Below are positions 27,444-60,271 of a DNA stretch of 64,000 nucleotides, piece by piece. Made by a program: the position numbers and the translations under genes. Origin of the DNA: Nocardioides sp. BP30 (lineage in GTDB: Bacteria; Actinomycetota; Actinomycetes; Propionibacteriales; Nocardioidaceae); contig NZ_CP123620.1 in assembly GCF_029873215.1 (NCBI RefSeq), forward strand, positions 1,240,001 through 1,304,000. Direction: 5' to 3'. Numbering within the stretch: the first letter of the stretch is position 1; every line of letters begins with the position of its first letter. Below the pieces are notes generated by a model. The model made no database searches and was not told the origin of the DNA. It saw only the letters and a program-made list of their open reading frames with translations.

Positions 27444-28454
27444 ATGGAGCTCACCACTGTCTGGTTCTGCCTGATCGCCCTCCTCTGGATGGGCTACTTC
27501 GTCCTGGAGGGCTTCGACTTCGGCGTCGGCCTCCTGATGCCGCTCATCGCCCGCGACGATCGCGAGCGCCGGGCGATCATCAACACCATCGGCCCCGTCT
27601 GGGACGGGAACGAGGTCTGGCTGCTCACCGCCGGAGGCGCGACCTTCGCGGCCTTCCCGGAGTGGTACGCGACGCTGTTCTCCGGCTTCTACCTGCCCCT
27701 GCTGCTCATCCTGCTGGCCCTGATCGTGCGCGGCCTGGCCTTCGAGTACCGCCACCAGCGGCCGGAGACCACCTGGAAGGGCTGGTGGGACCGGGCGATC
27801 ATCGTCGGCTCGCTGGTGCCGGCCTTCCTGTGGGGCGTGGCGTTCGCCAACATCGTGCGCGGCGTGCCGATCGATGCGAGCAAGGACTTCACCGGCTCGC
27901 TGTGGACGCTGCTCAACCCCTTCGGGCTGCTCGGTGGGCTGGTCACGCTGTCGCTCTTCGTCACCCACGGCGCGATGTTCCTGGCGCTGAAGACCGACGG
28001 TGAGATCCGGCGCCGGGCGGGTGCGCTGTCGTGGCGCGTCGGTGCGGTGGCCGCGGTGCTGGCAGTGGTCTTCCTGGGGTGGACCCAGGCCGCGCACGGT
28101 GACCTGGCTTCGGGCGTCCTCTTCGCCGTCGCCGCGGTGTCGCTGGTCGGCTCGCTGGCCGCGGCGTACGGAGGGCGTGAGGGGTGGGCCTTCCTCGGCA
28201 CGTTCGTCACGATCGCCGTCACGGTCGCGGGGCTGTTCGTCTCGCTGTTCCCCGACGTGATGCCGTCCTCGACCTCGGCGCTCTACTCGCTGACGGTGCA
28301 CAACGCCTCGGCGACGCACTACACGCTCACCGTGATGACGGTAGTGGCGGCGATCTTCACCCCGCTCGTGCTGCTCTACCAGGGCTGGACCTACTGGGTG
28401 TTCCGCAAGCGTGTCGGGATCCAGCACATCCCGACCGAGGAACTGGCGCACTGA
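27444..28454 (+). CDS. cydB: Cytochrome bd quinol oxidase subunit II
   Basis: A 336-aa partner of CydA with about eight to nine membrane helices. Conserved parts are WMGYFVLEGFDFGVG, INTIGPVWDGNEVWLLTAGG, FPEWYATLFSGFYLPL and FRHQRPE-like EYRHQRPETTW. ATG 27444 follows a GAGGAGG Shine-Dalgarno, 10 nt after the cydA stop. The cydDC start follows the cydB stop by 2 nt. Confidence 0.96.
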   Translation: MELTTVWFCLIALLWMGYFVLEGFDFGVGLLMPLIARDDRERRAIINTIGPVWDGNEVWLLTAGGATFAAFPEWYATLFSGFYLPLLLILLALIVRGLAFEYRHQRPETTWKGWWDRAIIVGSLVPAFLWGVAFANIVRGVPIDASKDFTGSLWTLLNPFGLLGGLVTLSLFVTHGAMFLALKTDGEIRRRAGALSWRVGAVAAVLAVVFLGWTQAAHGDLASGVLFAVAAVSLVGSLAAAYGGREGWAFLGTFVTIAVTVAGLFVSLFPDVMPSSTSALYSLTVHNASATHYTLTVMTVVAAIFTPLVLLYQGWTYWVFRKRVGIQHIPTEELAH

Positions 28455-28456
28455 GC

Positions 28457-31400
28457 ATGCGGCCCTCCGATCCGCGCCTGCGGCGCCAGCTCGCTCCCGC
28501 TCGCGGGCCGCTGGTCCTCGTGGGGGTGGCCGGCGTGGCCGGGAGCCTGTTGCTCATCGTCCAGGCCTGGGCGGTCACGATGCTGGTCCTCGCGGTGCTC
28601 GGGCACAGCGGATCGGCCGGCACGGTGGTGGGCTGGGCGGTGACCGTGGCGGCCGTGTTCGCCGCGCGCGGGCTCGTCGGCTGGGGAAGCGACCTCGCCG
28701 CCGCCAGGGCGGCGGGACGAGTCGGCCGCGACCTCCGCCGGCGGGTGCTCGGGATGCTTCTGGGCGGAGCGCCGGGCGAGCGGTCCTCGGGGTCGCTGTC
28801 GCTGCTGGCCACGCGCGGGGTGAGCGCCGCAGAGCCGTACCTGACGCGCTACGTGCCAGCCCTCGTCCTGGCAGGGGTCCTGCCCGTGATGACGCTGGTC
28901 GCGATCGCGGTGGTCGATCCGCCGAGCGCGCTGATCGTGCTCGTCACGCTGCCCCTGATCCCGGTCTTCGGGATCCTGGTGGGCCTGGCCACCCAGGACC
29001 GCGCCACCTCGCAGTGGCGGGCGCTCGCCGATCTCTCGGGACACTTCCTCGACGTGATGCGCGGCCTGCCGACCCTGGTGGCCTTCCGGCGCGCACGGGC
29101 ACAGTCGGCGGTGATCGCCGAGGTCACCGACCGCTACCGGCGGCGCTCGCTGCGCACCCTGCGGATCGCGTTCGCGTCCTCCGCGGTGCTGGAGCTGGTC
29201 GCCACCATCTCGGTAGCGCTGGTCGCGGTCACCGTGGGTGTTCGGCTCGCCGCCGGGCATCTCCCGCTGCGCACCGCCCTGGTCGTGCTCCTGCTCGCGC
29301 CGGAGGCGTACTGGCCGCTGCGCCGGGTGGGCGCGGAGTTCCATGCCGCGGCCGAGGGCGTCGCGACGTTCGAGGCGGCGGCGGGGCTGTCGGCGCCGGT
29401 CGCTGCCGCTGTCGGTGCCGACGCGGGCGCCGGTGTCGGTGCCGCATGGCCGGCGGTCGAGGCGGGCCCGCTCGAGGTCGAGGGTCTGGTCGTCACCTAC
29501 CCGGGCCGCGCGCGCCCGGCCCTGCGGCTGGATGCCCTCACCCTTCCGGAGTACGGCGTCACCGCCGTCACCGGGCCGTCGGGGTGCGGCAAGTCGACGC
29601 TGCTCGGCGTCCTCGCGGGGCTGGTGACGCCGACCGCCGGCACCGTCCGGCACGGTTCCCGGACGGTCGGCGAGCCGGGCTGGCGCGAGCAGATCGCCTT
29701 CCTGCCGCAGCGGCCGGTGTTCCTGGCGGGGACGATCGCGCACAACCTGCGCGTGGCGCGCCCCGAAGCGGACGACGAGGAGCTGTGGGCGGTGCTCGCG
29801 CGGGTGGCGCTGGCCGATCGGGTCGCCGCGCTGCCCGGAGCCCTGGACGCGGACCTCGCCGAGGACGGTGCCTCGCTGTCGGCGGGCGAGCGGGCCCGCC
29901 TCGCGCTGGCGCGGGTGGTGCTCGCGAGGCGGCCGTGGGTGCTTCTGGATGAGCCGACGGCGCACCTGGATGCGGTCACCGAGCGGGTGATCGTCGATGT
30001 GGTGGGTGAGCTGGGGCGGTCTGGTGGGGTCGTCGTGGTGGCGCATCGGCCGGCGTTGGTGTCGATCGCTGACCGGGTCGTCGAGCTGTCGGCTTCTGCT
30101 TCTGCTTCTGCTTCGGGCTCGGCGTCGGTCCCGGTCGGCACCGTCGGGGCAGGCCTACCGCCGCGCGACGCCTCGTTCCTCGGCGGCGCGTCGTCCGGCA
30201 GCGCCCCTTCCGGCACCGCCCGTGCCCGACGCCGAGGCGATGCGTCGTCCGGCAGCGCCCCTTCCGGCACCGCCCGTGTCCGGGGCTGGAGCGGTGGTCG
30301 GCGCAGTGGGTGGGGGGCTGCAGTGGTCAGTGGGCTGGCGTGGGCGTGTGGGGTGGCGCTCACGGCGACGGCGGGGTGGCTGATCGTGCGGGCGGATGCG
30401 CGACCGGCGATCCTGACGCTGACGGTGGCGATGGTGGGGGTGCGGACGTTCGGATTGGGGCGGCCGGTGCTGCGCTACGTCGAGCGGCTGTGGTCGCACG
30501 ACCGGGCGCTGCGGCTGCTGGCGCGGCGGCGGGTGGAGGTGTACGACGCGCTGGTGCCGTTGGTCCCGGGACGGTTGGGGAAGCGGCGCGGCGACGTACT
30601 GGCGGCGGTGGTCGACGACGTGGACGCGGTCCTCGACCGCGAGCTGCGGGCGCGGCTGCCGATCAGGGCGTACGCCGTCGTCGCCGCGCTGACGACCCTG
30701 ACCGCGACGCTGATCCGCCCCGTGGCCGGTGCGATCGTGGCCGGCACGGTGCTCGCAGCAGCGGTCGCGGCGCTGCTGGCCCGCGCCGGTGCCGCCCGGG
30801 CCGAACGCGCATCCATCGCTGCCCGCGCCCGGCTCTCCGACGACGTCGTCGAGGCCGTCCAGGCCGCCGACGAGCTGAGGATGTGGCAGGCGGAGCGCGT
30901 GGCGCTGGCCCGGGTGGACGCCGACGGCGCCGCGATGGCTGCCGCCGGCCGTACCGCCGCGGCCTGGCTCGGAGGCGCGCGAGCGCTCGTGCTCGGCGTC
31001 GCCGGGCTCGCCGTGGCCGCCACGGCGCTGGCGGTGCGCGATCAGGTCGCGGCGCACGAGCTGAGCGGCCCGGTGTTCGCGTTCCTCCTGCTGCTGCCCC
31101 TCGCGCTGGCCGAGCCGGCCGCGCAGCTGGCCGATGCCGGAGCCGCGGCGGCCCGCGCGGCGGCCGCCGAACAGCGGCTCGCCGAGCTGGCCGGCCGCCC
31201 GCCGGCGGTGCACGAGCCGGAGCTCCCCGCACCGGCGCCCGGGACCTCGGCCGTGGGATTCGCGGACGTGGTGGCCCGTGACCGGCAGCTGCCCGACCTC
31301 GCGGTGGCGCCGGGGGACCGGGTCGCGATCGTGGGACCGTCGGGATCGGGCAAGAGCACGGCCGCGGCCCTCGCGCTGCGGTTCCTGGATCCCGACAGCG

Positions 31401-31915
31401 GTGAGGTCAGCCTCGGCGGAGCTGACTACCGTCGGCTGGCCACCGACACGGTCCGTGAGCGGATCGGGCTGGTGGACGACGACCCCCACGTCTTCGCCTC
31501 CACCGTCGCCGAGAACGTCCGGCTCGCGCGCCCCGGCAGCAGCGACGGGGACGTCGAGCAGGCGCTGCGCCGTGCCCACCTCGGCGGCTGGCTCGACGCA
31601 CTCCCCGAGGGGCTGGCGACCCGGCTCGGCGACGGGTACGCCGCCGTCTCGGGCGGCGAGCGGGCGCGTCTGGCCGTGGCCCGCAGCCTGCTGGCCGACC
31701 AGGCCGTGCTGGTCCTCGACGAGCCGACCGCACACCTGGACGCCGACACCGCCGGCCAGCTCGCGACCGAGGTGCTGGCGACCGCGGATCGCTCCATCGT
31801 GTGGATCACGCACGCGCCGTACGGGCTGGACCTGGTCGACCGCATCGTCCGGCTCGATGCCCGAGGCGATACCGGAGGCGATGCCGGGGACGCCGCCCCG
31901 AGCGCGAGGCGCTAG
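28457..31915 (+). CDS. cydDC: CydDC fused ABC transporter for cytochrome bd assembly
   Basis: A 1152-aa fusion of CydD and CydC, which are separate in E. coli. The first half has a six-helix domain and then Walker A GPSGCGKST (about residue 373), signature LSAGERARLALARV and LLDEPTAHLD. The second half has another membrane domain, then Walker A GPSGSGKST (about 960), signature VSGGERARLAVARS and VLDEPTAHLD. The heterodimer exports cysteine/glutathione or handles haem needed for bd maturation. A Ser/Ala/Gly-rich linker near residues 545-620 contains a 54-nt-period duplication. The stop overlaps the convergent YchJ-like stop. Confidence 0.93.
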   Translation: MRPSDPRLRRQLAPARGPLVLVGVAGVAGSLLLIVQAWAVTMLVLAVLGHSGSAGTVVGWAVTVAAVFAARGLVGWGSDLAAARAAGRVGRDLRRRVLGMLLGGAPGERSSGSLSLLATRGVSAAEPYLTRYVPALVLAGVLPVMTLVAIAVVDPPSALIVLVTLPLIPVFGILVGLATQDRATSQWRALADLSGHFLDVMRGLPTLVAFRRARAQSAVIAEVTDRYRRRSLRTLRIAFASSAVLELVATISVALVAVTVGVRLAAGHLPLRTALVVLLLAPEAYWPLRRVGAEFHAAAEGVATFEAAAGLSAPVAAAVGADAGAGVGAAWPAVEAGPLEVEGLVVTYPGRARPALRLDALTLPEYGVTAVTGPSGCGKSTLLGVLAGLVTPTAGTVRHGSRTVGEPGWREQIAFLPQRPVFLAGTIAHNLRVARPEADDEELWAVLARVALADRVAALPGALDADLAEDGASLSAGERARLALARVVLARRPWVLLDEPTAHLDAVTERVIVDVVGELGRSGGVVVVAHRPALVSIADRVVELSASASASASGSASVPVGTVGAGLPPRDASFLGGASSGSAPSGTARARRRGDASSGSAPSGTARVRGWSGGRRSGWGAAVVSGLAWACGVALTATAGWLIVRADARPAILTLTVAMVGVRTFGLGRPVLRYVERLWSHDRALRLLARRRVEVYDALVPLVPGRLGKRRGDVLAAVVDDVDAVLDRELRARLPIRAYAVVAALTTLTATLIRPVAGAIVAGTVLAAAVAALLARAGAARAERASIAARARLSDDVVEAVQAADELRMWQAERVALARVDADGAAMAAAGRTAAAWLGGARALVLGVAGLAVAATALAVRDQVAAHELSGPVFAFLLLLPLALAEPAAQLADAGAAAARAAAAEQRLAELAGRPPAVHEPELPAPAPGTSAVGFADVVARDRQLPDLAVAPGDRVAIVGPSGSGKSTAAALALRFLDPDSGEVSLGGADYRRLATDTVRERIGLVDDDPHVFASTVAENVRLARPGSSDGDVEQALRRAHLGGWLDALPEGLATRLGDGYAAVSGGERARLAVARSLLADQAVLVLDEPTAHLDADTAGQLATEVLATADRSIVWITHAPYGLDLVDRIVRLDARGDTGGDAGDAAPSARR
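30188..30278 (+). repeat. Direct repeat in the CydD-CydC linker
   Basis: Two 37-nt copies (30188-30224 and 30242-30278), apparently identical, are offset by 54 nt. In frame they repeat ASSGSAPSGTAR in the flexible linker joining the CydD and CydC halves. Confidence 0.8.
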
Positions 31916-32274
31916 GAGATCTCGCCGTCGAGGTAGAGCCAGCGGCCGGCCCGTCGGGCGAACCGGCTGCGCTCGTGCAGCCGACCGCTCCGCCCGTCCT
32001 GGCGCCAGTGCGCGGTGAACTCCACCCAGTCCTCGCCGTACCCCTCGACGGTGAGGCCCACCCAGGTCGGTCCGCCCTCGAGGGCCGGCTCCGCAGGCCG
32101 GGTGCGGGGGTGCCAGGTCCGGAAGACGTAGCCCGCATCGCCGACGGCGTAGGCCGCGTATCGCGAGCGCATCAGCTCCAGGGCGGTGCCGGCCCGGCGG
32201 ACGCCGCGGTGCAGCGGACCGCAGCAGGCGTCGTAGGGGAGTCCGGAGCCGCACGGGCAGGGGGAGCCGATCAC
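31912..32274 (-). CDS. YchJ-like UPF0225 protein with SEC-C motif
   Basis: A 120-aa cytoplasmic protein. It begins with a SEC-C-type zinc motif (CPCGSGLPYDACCGPL) and continues with an NTF2-like domain (ALELMRSRYAAYAVGDAGYV, RTWHPRTRP). The SEC-C motif in SecA binds zinc and SecB or ribosomes; YchJ-like proteins have no assigned function. GAGAAT lies 6 nt before GTG 32274 (leaderless pattern). Its stop and the cydDC stop share a palindromic CTAG with a 4-nt overlap. Confidence 0.85.
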   Translation of the reverse strand: MIGSPCPCGSGLPYDACCGPLHRGVRRAGTALELMRSRYAAYAVGDAGYVFRTWHPRTRPAEPALEGGPTWVGLTVEGYGEDWVEFTAHWRQDGRSGRLHERSRFARRAGRWLYLDGEIS

Positions 32275-56212: not shown

Positions 56213-56268
56213 GCGTTCCTGCGGCTGACGGCGACGGATTGTCGGTCGTCGCTGGCATCCTTCGCGCC

Positions 56269-57024
56269 ATGTCCCGACCCGTCCTGCTCCTCCGGTGTCT
56301 GCTGGGCGTCGTGTTCCTGCTGCCGGTCGGGCTGGTGGCGGGCTGTGGGGTCACGGTGACGAGCACGGTGCAGCCGGCGCACCCGCCTGCCGCCGGCCCG
56401 GCGAGCGGCCCGGCGAGTGGCCCGGCGAGTGGCGCAGCCTCGGTTGACCTCGACGCCGCGCGCGCCGACCTGGCCCGGCTGGCGGTGAAGGGTCGTGCTC
56501 CGATGACCGGCTACGACCGCGACGCGTTCGGGCCGGCCTGGAGCGACGACACGGACGATCGGTGGGGTCACAACGGCTGCGACACCCGCAACGACGTGCT
56601 GCGACGCGATCTCGCCGACGTCGTGCTCAAACCCGGCACGCACGGCTGCGTGGTCCTCGCCGGCACGCTGCACGATCCGTACGGCGCCGCCACCATCGAC
56701 TTCGTCCGCGGCGTCGGCACCAGCACCGCCGTCCAGATCGACCACGTCGTCGCGCTCGGCGACGCCTGGCAGACCGGTGCCCAGCGGTGGACCGCACAGC
56801 GACGGCGGTCGTTCGCCAACGATCCCGGCGAGCTGCTGGCCGTCAGCGGCCCGATCAACGAGTCCAAGGGCGACGGCGACGCTGCCACGTGGCTGCCGCC
56901 GTACAAGGGGTTCCGGTGCGCCTACGTGGCTCGGCAGGTAGCGGTGAAGCGGGCCTACGGGCTGTGGGTGACGCCGGCCGAGCACGATGCGATCGCGCGC
57001 GTCCTCGCGGGGTGCGGCGCGTGA
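56269..57024 (+). CDS. Secreted DUF1524/HNH nuclease-like lipoprotein
   Basis: A 251-aa lipoprotein. The signal has lipobox LVAGC (Cys26), then a GPASGPASGPASGA linker. The catalytic module matches DUF1524/HNH: QIDHVVALGDAWQTGA has the Asp-His pair, and NDPGELLAVSGPINESKGD the partner residues. KGDGDAATWLPP is the family end motif. It probably cleaves nucleic acid at the cell surface, for nutrition or defence. ATG 56269 is used because it begins the signal; an ATG at 56239 would add ten residues. Confidence 0.82.
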   Translation: MSRPVLLLRCLLGVVFLLPVGLVAGCGVTVTSTVQPAHPPAAGPASGPASGPASGAASVDLDAARADLARLAVKGRAPMTGYDRDAFGPAWSDDTDDRWGHNGCDTRNDVLRRDLADVVLKPGTHGCVVLAGTLHDPYGAATIDFVRGVGTSTAVQIDHVVALGDAWQTGAQRWTAQRRRSFANDPGELLAVSGPINESKGDGDAATWLPPYKGFRCAYVARQVAVKRAYGLWVTPAEHDAIARVLAGCGA

Positions 57025-57590: not shown

Positions 57591-59177
57591 ATGGTGTCTG
57601 AGCCGATCCGGTCCGCCGGCCTGGCCTCCCTCGATCACGGGTGGGAGAACGCTCCGCACCCGTCGGTGATCCTCGCCGACGGTGGGTCCGTCCAGGCCGC
57701 GAACCGTGCTGCCCGCGACCTGCTGCCGCGGCTCGCCTCCGGCGGCGAGCTCGCCGACGGCGTCGCGGGGTGGCTCGCCGCGCTCGACCGGGACTGGCGT
57801 GCGGGCCGGTACGTCGAGGGCTCCGGCGGCTCGATCGGGGCCCGGCGCTTCCTCGCCCGGCCGGTGCTCACCGACGAGGGCGCGCGGATGTGGTGGCTGG
57901 AGGAGACCACGGCGCTGCACGCGGCCCAGGAGGAGCTGCGCCGGGAGCGGGAGAGGACGGAGTTCCTGCGCACCGCCTCCGACGCACTGCTGAGCTCCCT
58001 CAACGCGAACCGCACCATGGAGGTCGCCGCAGAGCTCGCGGCCAACCGTCTGGCCGACGCCGCCTGGGTGATCGCACCGGCGGTCCGCGGCCGTCACGAG
58101 GCGGTGCTCTGCGTGCGGGGCCAGCAGCCGCGGATGATGAACCTCGACATCCGGCCCGACGACGTCCCCGGCCTGGCCGAGGCCCTGCAGGGCTTCCCGC
58201 CGGTGCCGTCGCGGTGGATCGACCCCGGAGCCGTGGAGCCCTGGCTGGTCCCCGCCGGCTTCGGGGCCGCAGGGCCCGTCGTGGTGACATCGCTGCCCGG
58301 ACACGGCGTACCTGCTGGTGCGCTGGTGCTGCTGCGCAGCGCCGAGGAGCCTGCCTTCAGCGAGGAGGAGGAGGGCGTCGCCCGGCTGTTCGCCTCGCGG
58401 GTGGGCGCGGCGCTCTCGGCCGCCCGGCTCTTCGAGGAGCAGAGCGCCATCACCGACGTGCTGACCTCCGAGCTGCTGCCGCCGGTGTTGCGCCGGCTCG
58501 ACGGCATCGACTTCGCCGGCGTCTACCGGCCCGCCCAGGAGACCGCCCGTCTCGGCGGCGACTTCTACGACGTGCACCCGATCGCCGGCGGCGCGCTGGC
58601 GCTGCTCGGCGACGTCTGCGGACAGGGGCTGGAGGCGGCGGTCCTCACCGGCCGGATCCGCAACACCCTGCAGGCACTGCTCCCGATGGTGGACGACCAC
58701 GTCGAGATGCTGAAGATGCTCAACTCGGTGCTGCTCACCTCGCGGCAGACCCGGTTCGCCAGCCTCGTGCTCGCCACCGCGACCCAGGTGGGCGAGCGGG
58801 TGCACCTGAGCCTGACCAGGGCCGGCCACCTGCCGCCGCTGATCGTGCGGACCGACGGCAGCGTCGAGGAGGTGTTCGGGTCCGGGCCGCTGGTGGGCAT
58901 CCTGCCCGACGCGTCGTTCGAGACGCTGACGGTGGAGCTGGCTCCCGGCGAGACCTGCCTGCTCTACACCGACGGGATCGTCGAGGCCCGCGGCGGTCCG
59001 ATGGGCGGCGAGATGTTCGGCGAGGCACGGCTGCGGCGCGTGCTGTCCCAGTGCCAGGGGATGCCGGCCGAGGCGGTCGTCGAGCACGTGCTGATGCTCG
59101 CGACGCAGTGGCTGGAGCTGCCCGAGCACGACGACATGGCGGTGCTCGCCATCACCGCGCCGCGGGCCCGCGGCTGA
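57591..59177 (+). CDS. PAS/GAF-containing SpoIIE-type PP2C phosphatase
   Basis: A 528-aa signalling phosphatase of the RsbU/SpoIIE type, which typically dephosphorylates anti-anti-sigma (STAS) proteins. Residues 20-100 are PAS-like (HPSVILADGGSVQAANRAARDLL), 125-290 GAF-like, and 300-525 the PPM phosphatase. The metal aspartates are visible in GGDFYD (Asp324), GDVCGQG (Asp341), YTDGIVEA (Asp461) and EHDDMAVL (Asp514/515), so it should be active. Only 29 bp separate it from the B12-binding sensor gene downstream, which suggests a joint signalling module. Confidence 0.88.
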   Translation: MVSEPIRSAGLASLDHGWENAPHPSVILADGGSVQAANRAARDLLPRLASGGELADGVAGWLAALDRDWRAGRYVEGSGGSIGARRFLARPVLTDEGARMWWLEETTALHAAQEELRRERERTEFLRTASDALLSSLNANRTMEVAAELAANRLADAAWVIAPAVRGRHEAVLCVRGQQPRMMNLDIRPDDVPGLAEALQGFPPVPSRWIDPGAVEPWLVPAGFGAAGPVVVTSLPGHGVPAGALVLLRSAEEPAFSEEEEGVARLFASRVGAALSAARLFEEQSAITDVLTSELLPPVLRRLDGIDFAGVYRPAQETARLGGDFYDVHPIAGGALALLGDVCGQGLEAAVLTGRIRNTLQALLPMVDDHVEMLKMLNSVLLTSRQTRFASLVLATATQVGERVHLSLTRAGHLPPLIVRTDGSVEEVFGSGPLVGILPDASFETLTVELAPGETCLLYTDGIVEARGGPMGGEMFGEARLRRVLSQCQGMPAEAVVEHVLMLATQWLELPEHDDMAVLAITAPRARG

Positions 59178-59206
59178 GCCCGCGCACCGACGGGAGGAGG
59201 GCAGCT

Positions 59207-60271
59207 GTGGCCGAGACGATCGAGGAGCGCACCGACGCGCGCGCCCAGCCGGTGGAGACCTACGCCGAGAGCCTGTGGCAGGCCGTCATCGAGGCGGACG
59301 AGCACGAGGCGACAGACGTGGTGATGGCCGCGCTGGACGCGGGCGTCGACCCCGAGGCGATCCTGCTCGACATCGTGGGTGCGACCCAGCGGCGGGTCGG
59401 GATGGAGTGGGCAGCGAACCGGATCAGCGTCGCGCAGGAGCACGCCGCCACCGCCATCAACGAGCGGGTGATCGTGCACCTGTCCGGCCGGTTGCCCCGG
59501 CAACAGCCGACCCGGGCCCGCGTCGCCGTCGCATGCGTGGACGGCGAGTGGCACGCGCTGCCGGCCCGACTGCTGGCCGAGGTGCTGACCCTGCGCGGGT
59601 TCCGGGTGGACTACCTGGGCGCGCAGGTCCCGACCCCGCATCTGATCACCCACCTGCACCGGACCAGCCCGGACGTGGTGGCGCTGTCCGGGTCGATCCC
59701 GACCCGGCTGCCGGTCGCGCATGCGACGATCACCGCCTGCCAGAGCGCCGGCGTACCCGTCATCGTCGGCGGCTCTGCCTTCGGCGTCGGTGGCCGATGG
59801 GCCACCCTGCTGGGCGCCGATGCGTGGGCTCCGGACGCGGCCGCGGCGGTGGAGCGGCTCAGCCGGCCGCTGCCCCGCCCGCAGGCCCCGCACCAGCCGA
59901 TCGACGACCTCCCGCACCTGGCCGACCAGGAGTACACCATGGTCGCGCGCAGCGCCCCGCGGCTCGTCCGCGCGGTGATGACCGGGCTGGAGGAGCGGCT
60001 GCCGATGATGCGCGACTACTCCGACCTCCAGCGCCAGCACACCGCCGAGGACGTCGCCCAGATCGTCGACTTCCTCGCCGCCGCGCTCTACGTCGGCGAC
60101 GCGGCGCTGTTCTGCGACTTCCTCGCCTGGACGGCCGAGGTCCTCGAGGCCCGCGCCGTCCCCGCCCGCTCGCTGGTGCCGGCCGTGGAGTTGCTGCGCG
60201 ACGAGCTGCGGGACTTCGAGCGTGCTGTCGCGATGCTGGACCAGGCTTGGGGACTGTTGCAGCCTCGGTGA
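59207..60271 (+). CDS. B12-binding sensor protein with CarH-type photoreceptor signature
   Basis: A 354-aa protein. Residues 20-100 are the B12-binding helix bundle, with the CarH-type signature Trp68, nine residues, Glu78-His79. Residues 103-215 are the Rossmann-like B12-binding domain. Glu114-x-His116 matches the ExHxxG ligand motif of CarH, although Gly is Pro119, and SGS and VGGS loops are present. A C-terminal helical domain (about 265-354) is of unknown family. CarH uses this signature to hold adenosylcobalamin for light sensing, but there is no MerR-type DNA-binding domain here. GTG 59207 follows a GGGAGGAGG Shine-Dalgarno. Confidence 0.85.
   Translation: MAETIEERTDARAQPVETYAESLWQAVIEADEHEATDVVMAALDAGVDPEAILLDIVGATQRRVGMEWAANRISVAQEHAATAINERVIVHLSGRLPRQQPTRARVAVACVDGEWHALPARLLAEVLTLRGFRVDYLGAQVPTPHLITHLHRTSPDVVALSGSIPTRLPVAHATITACQSAGVPVIVGGSAFGVGGRWATLLGADAWAPDAAAAVERLSRPLPRPQAPHQPIDDLPHLADQEYTMVARSAPRLVRAVMTGLEERLPMMRDYSDLQRQHTAEDVAQIVDFLAAALYVGDAALFCDFLAWTAEVLEARAVPARSLVPAVELLRDELRDFERAVAMLDQAWGLLQPR

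Follow-up and report, generated by a model that had tools for sequence, protein, structure and literature searches.

A predicted photocobilin encoded beside a SpoIIE-type phosphatase in Nocardioides sp. BP30: a probable two-gene light-signalling unit

The stretch of DNA analyzed here (the window) comprises 64,000 nucleotides of the Nocardioides sp. BP30 genome (contig NZ_CP123620.1, positions 1,240,001 to 1,304,000). It contains two complete, consecutive genes on the forward strand, encoding a serine phosphatase of the SpoIIE/RsbU type (57591–59177, 528 residues) and a B12-binding sensor (59207–60271, 354 residues). Judged by its sequence, the sensor is a photocobilin, consisting of a CarH-type B12 module and a bilin-binding globin. 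We consider it quite probable that the two genes form a unit for light signalling, which would be the version of a SpoIIE-photocobilin-STAS operon present at this locus, and in which the photocobilin gates the phosphatase and, through it, partner switching. Most likely, light perceived via adenosylcobalamin (AdoCbl) and probably biliverdin would act on the phosphatase in trans, and partner switching would follow. Light probably controls the phosphatase, because a SpoIIE phosphatase accompanies the photocobilin in every close relative examined. The original prediction for this locus, made from the DNA letters, had proposed a partner-switching phosphatase under the control of light or B12 status. 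The genomic context agrees with this proposal, since the pair is conserved, but the proposal was incomplete: the bilin globin had been missed, and red light is also a probable signal.

The identity of the sensor is supported by several independent comparisons. A phmmer search against solved structures matched residues 21–346 to 8j2x (E = 1.5e-80) and 8j2w (E = 1.6e-80), with 8j2y as a third full-length match (E = 2e-41). These structures are photocobilins, B12 photoreceptors whose C-terminal globin binds biliverdin (PMC10979010). The sensor is 47% identical to SasPcob and 35% identical to AbPcob by BLASTP. Pfam detects a B12-binding_2 domain at residues 20–92 (E = 1.2e-15), corresponding to the four-helix bundle of the B12 module (59264–59482), and a B12-binding domain at residues 105–215 (E = 7.6e-19), corresponding to the Rossmann-type domain (59519–59851). 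The AlphaFold2 model (36 sequences) has a mean predicted local distance difference test score (pLDDT) of 92.3 and a predicted template-modelling score (pTM) of 0.88. The top five Foldseek matches of this model are all photocobilin chains, with template-modelling (TM) scores of 0.86/0.92 over 336 columns for 8j2w_A, while the lower matches are CarH-type and other corrinoid proteins that cover the B12 part only. C-terminal helices extend from residue 236 to 351 (59912–60259) in the model. This region had been described as a helical domain of about 90 residues and unknown family; a helical domain is indeed present, but it spans about 115 residues and its family is known. Since the photocobilin structures match over the full length in both phmmer and Foldseek, it is assigned as the bilin-binding globin, also by alignment with SasPcob, and a response to red light is therefore expected in addition to green; the sensor probably responds to both. 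In line with the original prediction, neither a MerR domain nor any other DNA-binding domain is found in the sensor by Pfam and NCBIfam. The lack of a MerR domain and a score of 52.9 bits for the NCBIfam CarH model, compared to a cut-off of 400, rule out membership in the CarH/LitR group.

The CarH-type light signature consists of the motifs GxxW, EH, GxxH and GxxxP (PMC11796333). The signature is complete in the sensor: G65–W68 and E78–H79, which are predicted to lie around the adenosyl group, G113–H116, which would provide the axial histidine, and G138–P142. Trp68, Glu78-His79, Glu114, His116 and Pro119 are located at the positions originally given for them. However, Pro119 is not a deviation from the usual glycine, as had been suggested, but the norm of the family, since proline is present in all 88 related loci and in SasPcob. 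SasPcob W61, E71/H72, H108, H137, D270 and W296 correspond to W68, E78/H79, H116, H145, D282 and W308 in the window protein (the SasPcob residue numbers in PMC10979010 equal the 8j2w chain positions plus 6 throughout). Across the 88 related loci (87 orthologues and L088, a relative with 36–40% identity), W68, E78/H79 and H116 are each kept in 88, H145 and W308 in 87, and D282 in 86. The remaining signature residues are similarly constant (G65 and G138, 88/88 each; P142, 85/88; G113, 84/88). Threonine (T279) is located three residues before D282, where CXRD/CXQD globins carry a cysteine, and no cysteine is present at the usual attachment position. In AbPcob, a histidine replaces the bilin aspartate and biliverdin is bound poorly (PMC10979010). 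As the window protein has the aspartate, its bilin site is more likely to resemble that of SasPcob. A distant photocobilin from the same genus, also paired with SpoIIE (L102:4060-5954), has histidine in place of the bilin aspartate, arginine in place of the glycine of GxxH, and serine in place of the proline of GxxxP; this protein may be a B12-only or altered sensor.

The adjacent gene encodes an intact PAS/GAF/PP2C phosphatase, as originally described. Sequence and fold assign it to the SpoIIE/RsbU-type PP2C phosphatases with the conserved aspartates in place. Pfam detects a SpoIIE domain (E = 7.1e-41), and the AlphaFold2 model (mean pLDDT 88.6) consists of a PAS fold (about residues 20–106, 57648–57908), a GAF fold (about residues 135–250, 57993–58340), a long helix (residues 258–294, 58362–58472) and a PP2C fold, whose relative placing is uncertain because of a pTM of 0.53. 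The names PAS and GAF are readings of the model fold. No PAS match was found with Pfam, and that domain is assigned from its fold only. The GAF domain is weakly supported by a profile search, in which GAF chains of DevS match with E-values of 5.7e-5 to 8e-5, and a homologous fusion protein (P0002, see below) has a weak Pfam GAF match below the cut-off (E = 0.0026). The best structural matches by Foldseek are 6k4e (SiaA-PP2C) and 3ke6 (RsbU/RsbW of Rv1364c), with RssB and SpoIIE also among the matches. Five aspartates of the PP2C domain (D324, D341, D461, D514 and D515), which we take to be metal ligands, are present in all 89 sequences compared (the loci behind the residue counts above, plus the window). 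The linker helix preceding the PP2C domain is a candidate control site by analogy with the RsbU linker (PMC12143880).

The two genes are consistently paired among close relatives. In a scan of named genomes, for which the best 80 of 256 relatives were kept, a SpoIIE gene is located directly upstream on the same strand in 80/80 loci. These loci span 16 genera, including Amycolatopsis, Streptomyces, Lentzea, Pseudonocardia and Nocardioides. Seven further orthologues with 47–62% identity (L086, L087 and L089–L093) have the same arrangement (7/7). The genome survey proposed with the original prediction, which named non-conservation of the pair as a refuting outcome, thus found the pair in 87 of the 87 orthologous loci examined (47–75% identity to the window protein, with 86 of them at 57% or above). 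We estimate the chance of an adjacent SpoIIE gene at well under 1% per locus, given 10 SpoIIE matches in a genome of 4.28 Mb. The Pfam E-values (7.6e-19 for the B12-binding and 7.1e-41 for the SpoIIE domain), together with the recurrence of the pair at every orthologous locus, indicate that these features are not due to chance. The pairwise distances of photocobilins and phosphatases are correlated (r = 0.90, a value reached by 0 of 999 permutations), although common descent alone would account for much of this correlation. Other neighbors are little conserved; once the pair and frames that overlap or run antisense are set aside, the commonest cluster at the threshold used, a downstream STAS open reading frame (ORF), is present in 30 loci.

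Among photocobilins with less than 47% identity, an adjacent SpoIIE gene was found in 19 of the 42 examined. Since the other 23 are without an adjacent phosphatase, the pairing is a property of the clade and not of the whole family. Upstream flanks are short for some of these 42 loci (∼1.5 kb for L115–L123 and <0.7 kb for L147). Three duplicates (L113, L114 and L118, of L006, L007 and L102, respectively) were excluded from the totals of 87 and 42, and 23 weaker matches (6 from the phylum draw, 5 from relatives and 12 from the genus) were listed without their surroundings. The photocobilin gene is not a core gene. In an even draw of the phylum (296 genomes), matches were obtained in at least 19 genomes and an orthologue in at least 8 (own genome included); any match is present in at least 11 of 58 genomes of relatives. 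Within the genus, at least 40 of 215 genomes have a match and at least 3 an orthologue. These counts are possibly low, as only some first-look candidates per genome were scored (e.g. 7 in the phylum draw and 9 in the genus). Directly ahead of the photocobilin, a similar ORF of ∼205 residues is found in L123 (871-1476), L154 and L159, which carry distant photocobilins of the same genus without SpoIIE.

The neighborhood of the pair was further analyzed for STAS and HATPase_c_2 domains, using profiles built from the loci and counting by domain position, with equal-sized control zones on the same strand 3–5.6 kb away (shorter than full in 5 loci downstream and 13 upstream). A STAS domain immediately follows the photocobilin in 66/87 orthologous loci and immediately precedes SpoIIE in 16/87, so that 70/87 have one in at least one of these positions. 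HATPase_c_2 adjoins the pair in 23/87; at least one of the two domains is present in 71/87, and both in 22/87. The control zones give 2/87 and 1/87. Two STAS ORFs and one HATPase ORF sampled from L008 and L009, as well as the STAS of L093, were confirmed by Pfam, and 6/6 further sampled STAS ORFs scored over a Pfam STAS cut-off. SpoIIE, photocobilin and STAS thus usually follow one another in this order. A downstream STAS is missing in 21 loci, among them the Nocardioides loci L006 and L007 and the nine Lentzea loci. The downstream STAS proteins mostly have Asp-Ser in the usual motif, while L027 has Asp-Pro and L041 has Asp-Ala; if the motif serine is the phosphorylated residue, phosphorylation would be unable to switch these two.

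Gene fusions provide another view of the same association. Long proteins with a photocobilin part were sought among the 7995 candidates with most words in common. At least 25 were found, of which at least 20 contain GGDEF (a known kind), at least one SpoIIE (P0002) and at least one STAS (P0005). P0002 (908 residues; one protein from one genome) consists of SpoIIE followed by a photocobilin, and P0005 (487 residues; three member sequences) of a photocobilin followed by STAS_2. Both are read as the result of lost stop codons, as their linkers contain the apparent old start methionine of the second gene. P0003, P0004 and P0006 were set aside as fusions, owing to out-of-frame ends or a deletion chimera. 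In P0006, a Streptomyces protein of 489 residues, the N-terminal PAS-GAF part of the phosphatase is fused to a photocobilin without its four-helix bundle, which suggests that an internal part of the operon was deleted. In the window, the sensor frame is free of stop codons through the whole phosphatase gene (57641–60271, forward strand, an ORF of 876 residues), as is common in high-GC frames. The database protein P0003 (946 residues) resembles a gene call of such a through-open frame; fusions in databases therefore need checking.

The host genome contains one match each for heme oxygenase (E = 1.2e-49) and cobalamin adenosyltransferase (E = 7.2e-61), and the host can thus make both biliverdin and AdoCbl. 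It also contains 12 STAS matches, 10 SpoIIE matches, 23 HATPase_c_2 matches (13 over the cut-off), and four other places matching B12-binding Pfam families. A stressosome-like cluster (L107, G000 C1:2178338-2185543) contains two SpoIIE, three HATPase_c_2 and four STAS matches. The best STAS ORFs by the family STAS profile, at G000 C1:2185124-2185543 (E = 1e-16) and 2184865-2185203 (E = 7.9e-16), lie beside a kinase in this cluster. It is the likeliest candidate home for a substrate of the window phosphatase, but the STAS profiles are too unspecific for one to be assigned in this genome.

These observations suggest a mechanism that draws on two characterized systems. In the dark, AdoCbl-bound SasPcob is a dimer; its Co-C bond is cleaved by green light and, in the biliverdin-bound form, also by red light, which yields monomers, whereas AbDPcob stays a dimer on illumination and opens out (PMC10979010). 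When stand-alone SasPcob carrying both chromophores is in its light state, it activates a diguanylate cyclase in trans; without biliverdin, the sign of this effect is reversed (PMC10979010). In the RsbU phosphatase, RsbT orders the linker helix, dimerizes the PP2C domains and thereby activates the enzyme, and linker control of this kind has been proposed as a general principle of phosphatases that carry sensor domains such as PAS and GAF (PMC12143880). By joining the trans effect of SasPcob to the linker control of RsbU, we infer that the photocobilin gates the phosphatase in one light state. The photocobilin would bind AdoCbl in its CarH-type module, where His116 would serve as the lower axial ligand and Trp68 and Glu78-His79 would surround the adenosyl group; its globin would hold a bilin, most likely biliverdin, non-covalently via Asp282 and Trp308. 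In the dark, the AdoCbl-bound protein would be dimeric. On illumination, either with green light acting directly or with red light acting via the bilin, the Co-C bond would break, the adenosyl group would be released and the dimer would split. The altered photocobilin would then bind or release the PAS-GAF-linker part of the co-encoded phosphatase, changing the pairing of its PP2C domains through the linker helix, as RsbT does on RsbU. The phosphatase is expected to dephosphorylate a STAS anti-anti-sigma factor, which would sequester an anti-sigma kinase and free a sigma factor. Chromophore binding, the light response, direct contact, the sign of the effect and the substrate are the inferred parts of this scheme.

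Several points weigh against such a unit. As noted above, 23 of the 42 distant photocobilins examined are without an adjacent phosphatase, and 16 of the 87 orthologous pairs are without a partner-switching neighbor. No STAS or HATPase_c_2 match is found anywhere in the 64-kb window, and the closest relatives (L006 and L007) are without STAS or kinase beside the pair; in Nocardioides, the STAS substrate of the phosphatase would then have to be the product of a gene outside this locus. With PAS and GAF domains of its own, the phosphatase may instead respond to other signals. The linker of P0002 resembles translated intergenic DNA, and this fusion may be due to a lost stop codon or to an assembly error. 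The published trans effect reverses without biliverdin, and the effect here may be of either sign. Finally, sequence cannot tell light sensing from sensing of the AdoCbl level.

The last point leads to the best surviving alternative, in which the pair and its contact are the same, while the signal is the supply of AdoCbl or the redox state of cobalamin, with the apo and AdoCbl forms switching the phosphatase. The AbDPcob fusion is indeed less active with AdoCbl than in its apo form (PMC10979010), and AdoCbl pools would matter in a genome with an adenosyltransferase and four other B12-binding places. However, a pure B12 sensor needs no bilin pocket, and Trp68, Glu78-His79 and the bilin-contact Asp/Trp/His are kept in 86–88 of 88 loci; a heme oxygenase is also encoded in the genome. 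We therefore regard this alternative as unlikely. It is less likely still that the photocobilin acts on STAS or on the anti-sigma kinase, with the phosphatase as an operon mate responding to its own PAS/GAF signal. The photocobilin-STAS fusion P0005 and the STAS genes directly downstream in 66/87 loci would fit such a target, but it is SpoIIE that is the constant neighbor (87/87), while a downstream STAS is missing in 21/87 loci and in the window. A further reading, as a corrinoid protein of a methyltransferase, would agree with the automatic annotation 'methanogenic corrinoid protein MtbC1', a name that the relative P0004 bears, and with weak NCBIfam MtbC/MtgC matches (E = 3.1e-12 to 1.7e-7). 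It is ruled out as highly improbable, since these matches are far below the curated cut-offs (46.5 of 350 bits for MtbC), no methyltransferase is found among the neighboring proteins scanned, and conservation extends to both the globin domain and the residues of the adenosyl pocket.

The proposed light-signalling pair is best compared to SasPcob of Saccharothrix syringae (PDB 8J2W, dark; 8J2X, light; PMC10979010). SasPcob is also a stand-alone protein, aligns over the full length with 47% identity, and has the same order of four-helix bundle, Rossmann and globin domains, as well as the same axial His, Trp, Glu-His, bilin Asp/Trp and bridging His. It differs in that the window protein and its 87 loci form a separate clade (47–75% identity to the window protein, compared to 47% for SasPcob). 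L093, the locus nearest SasPcob (56% identity to it), is likewise paired with SpoIIE and STAS. AbDPcob, a photocobilin-diguanylate cyclase (PDB 8J2Y), has the same sensor fold with 35% identity, but its output is a GGDEF cyclase fused in cis and its bilin Asp is replaced by His. CarH/LitR proteins (of Thermus thermophilus and others) share the B12 module with W, EH, GxxH and GxxxP (Foldseek TM score ∼0.5 by query length), whereas the window sensor is without the MerR domain and has the additional bilin globin. RsbU, the partner of RsbT in the general stress response of Bacillus subtilis, is a phosphatase of the same kind, in which a helical linker likewise precedes PP2C, and control in trans by a partner protein is a possible further similarity. 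RsbT has a HATPase fold, whereas the putative partner here is a photoreceptor, and the N-terminus of the phosphatase is PAS-GAF rather than the four-helix bundle of RsbU.

A link between photocobilins and these proteins has been predicted before. Based on a STRING network and neighborhood analysis, SasPcob 'potentially interacts' with STAS, SpoIIE and PP2C-like proteins (PMC10979010). That analysis covers four species, one of which, Streptomyces sp. M41, is apparently the strain of L054; the function of stand-alone photocobilins is described as less clear, and the predicted interaction network is offered for it. Beyond this report, we found no printed link between SpoIIE and photocobilins in a literature search that was mostly without subscription papers. 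Photocobilins and the predicted STAS/SpoIIE link are thus already known from PMC10979010, while the fixed pairing across a clade, the STAS and kinase context with its distance control, and the two fusions are added here. Pairing across 16 genera, STAS in 66/87 loci and two fusions turn the prediction into a defined, testable set of photoreceptor, phosphatase and substrate, and give stand-alone photocobilins a concrete, conserved output operon to test. We lean, with less assurance than for the window itself, towards a general form of this proposal, in which a clade of stand-alone photocobilins across the actinobacteria serves as the dedicated, RsbT-like trans switch of one SpoIIE-type phosphatase, responding to green and red light and usually encoded in a SpoIIE-photocobilin-STAS operon. 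If true, soil actinobacteria that are not photosynthetic would use vitamin B12 and biliverdin to adjust a sigma factor to green and red light, and this set of proteins would represent a compact optogenetic phosphatase switch.

The start codon of the sensor gene is a GTG at 59207, separated by 29 bases from the stop codon of the phosphatase gene, and a ribosome-binding site, GGGAGGAG, is located at 59192–59199 on the forward strand. Upstream of the pair, an ORF at 56239–57024 contains a GmrSD_C (HNH-type) domain (E = 2.2e-20) and has a lipoprotein-like start. It occupies the same position in L006 and not in L007, and the upstream gene order as a whole is the same as in the window in L006 and not in L007. 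As a check for recent insertion of the pair in the genus, 19 loci around the downstream DUF255 gene were compared (L125–L143, with flanks of only ∼1.5 kb). The upstream genes of the window are beside DUF255 in none of them, and one, L129, has the same next gene downstream of DUF255 as the window. Elsewhere in the window, GC content over 4 kb is highest at positions 28001–32000 (75.8%, AT skew −0.238), which contain an ORF of 1243 residues (28184–31915), with one short tandem repeat nearby.

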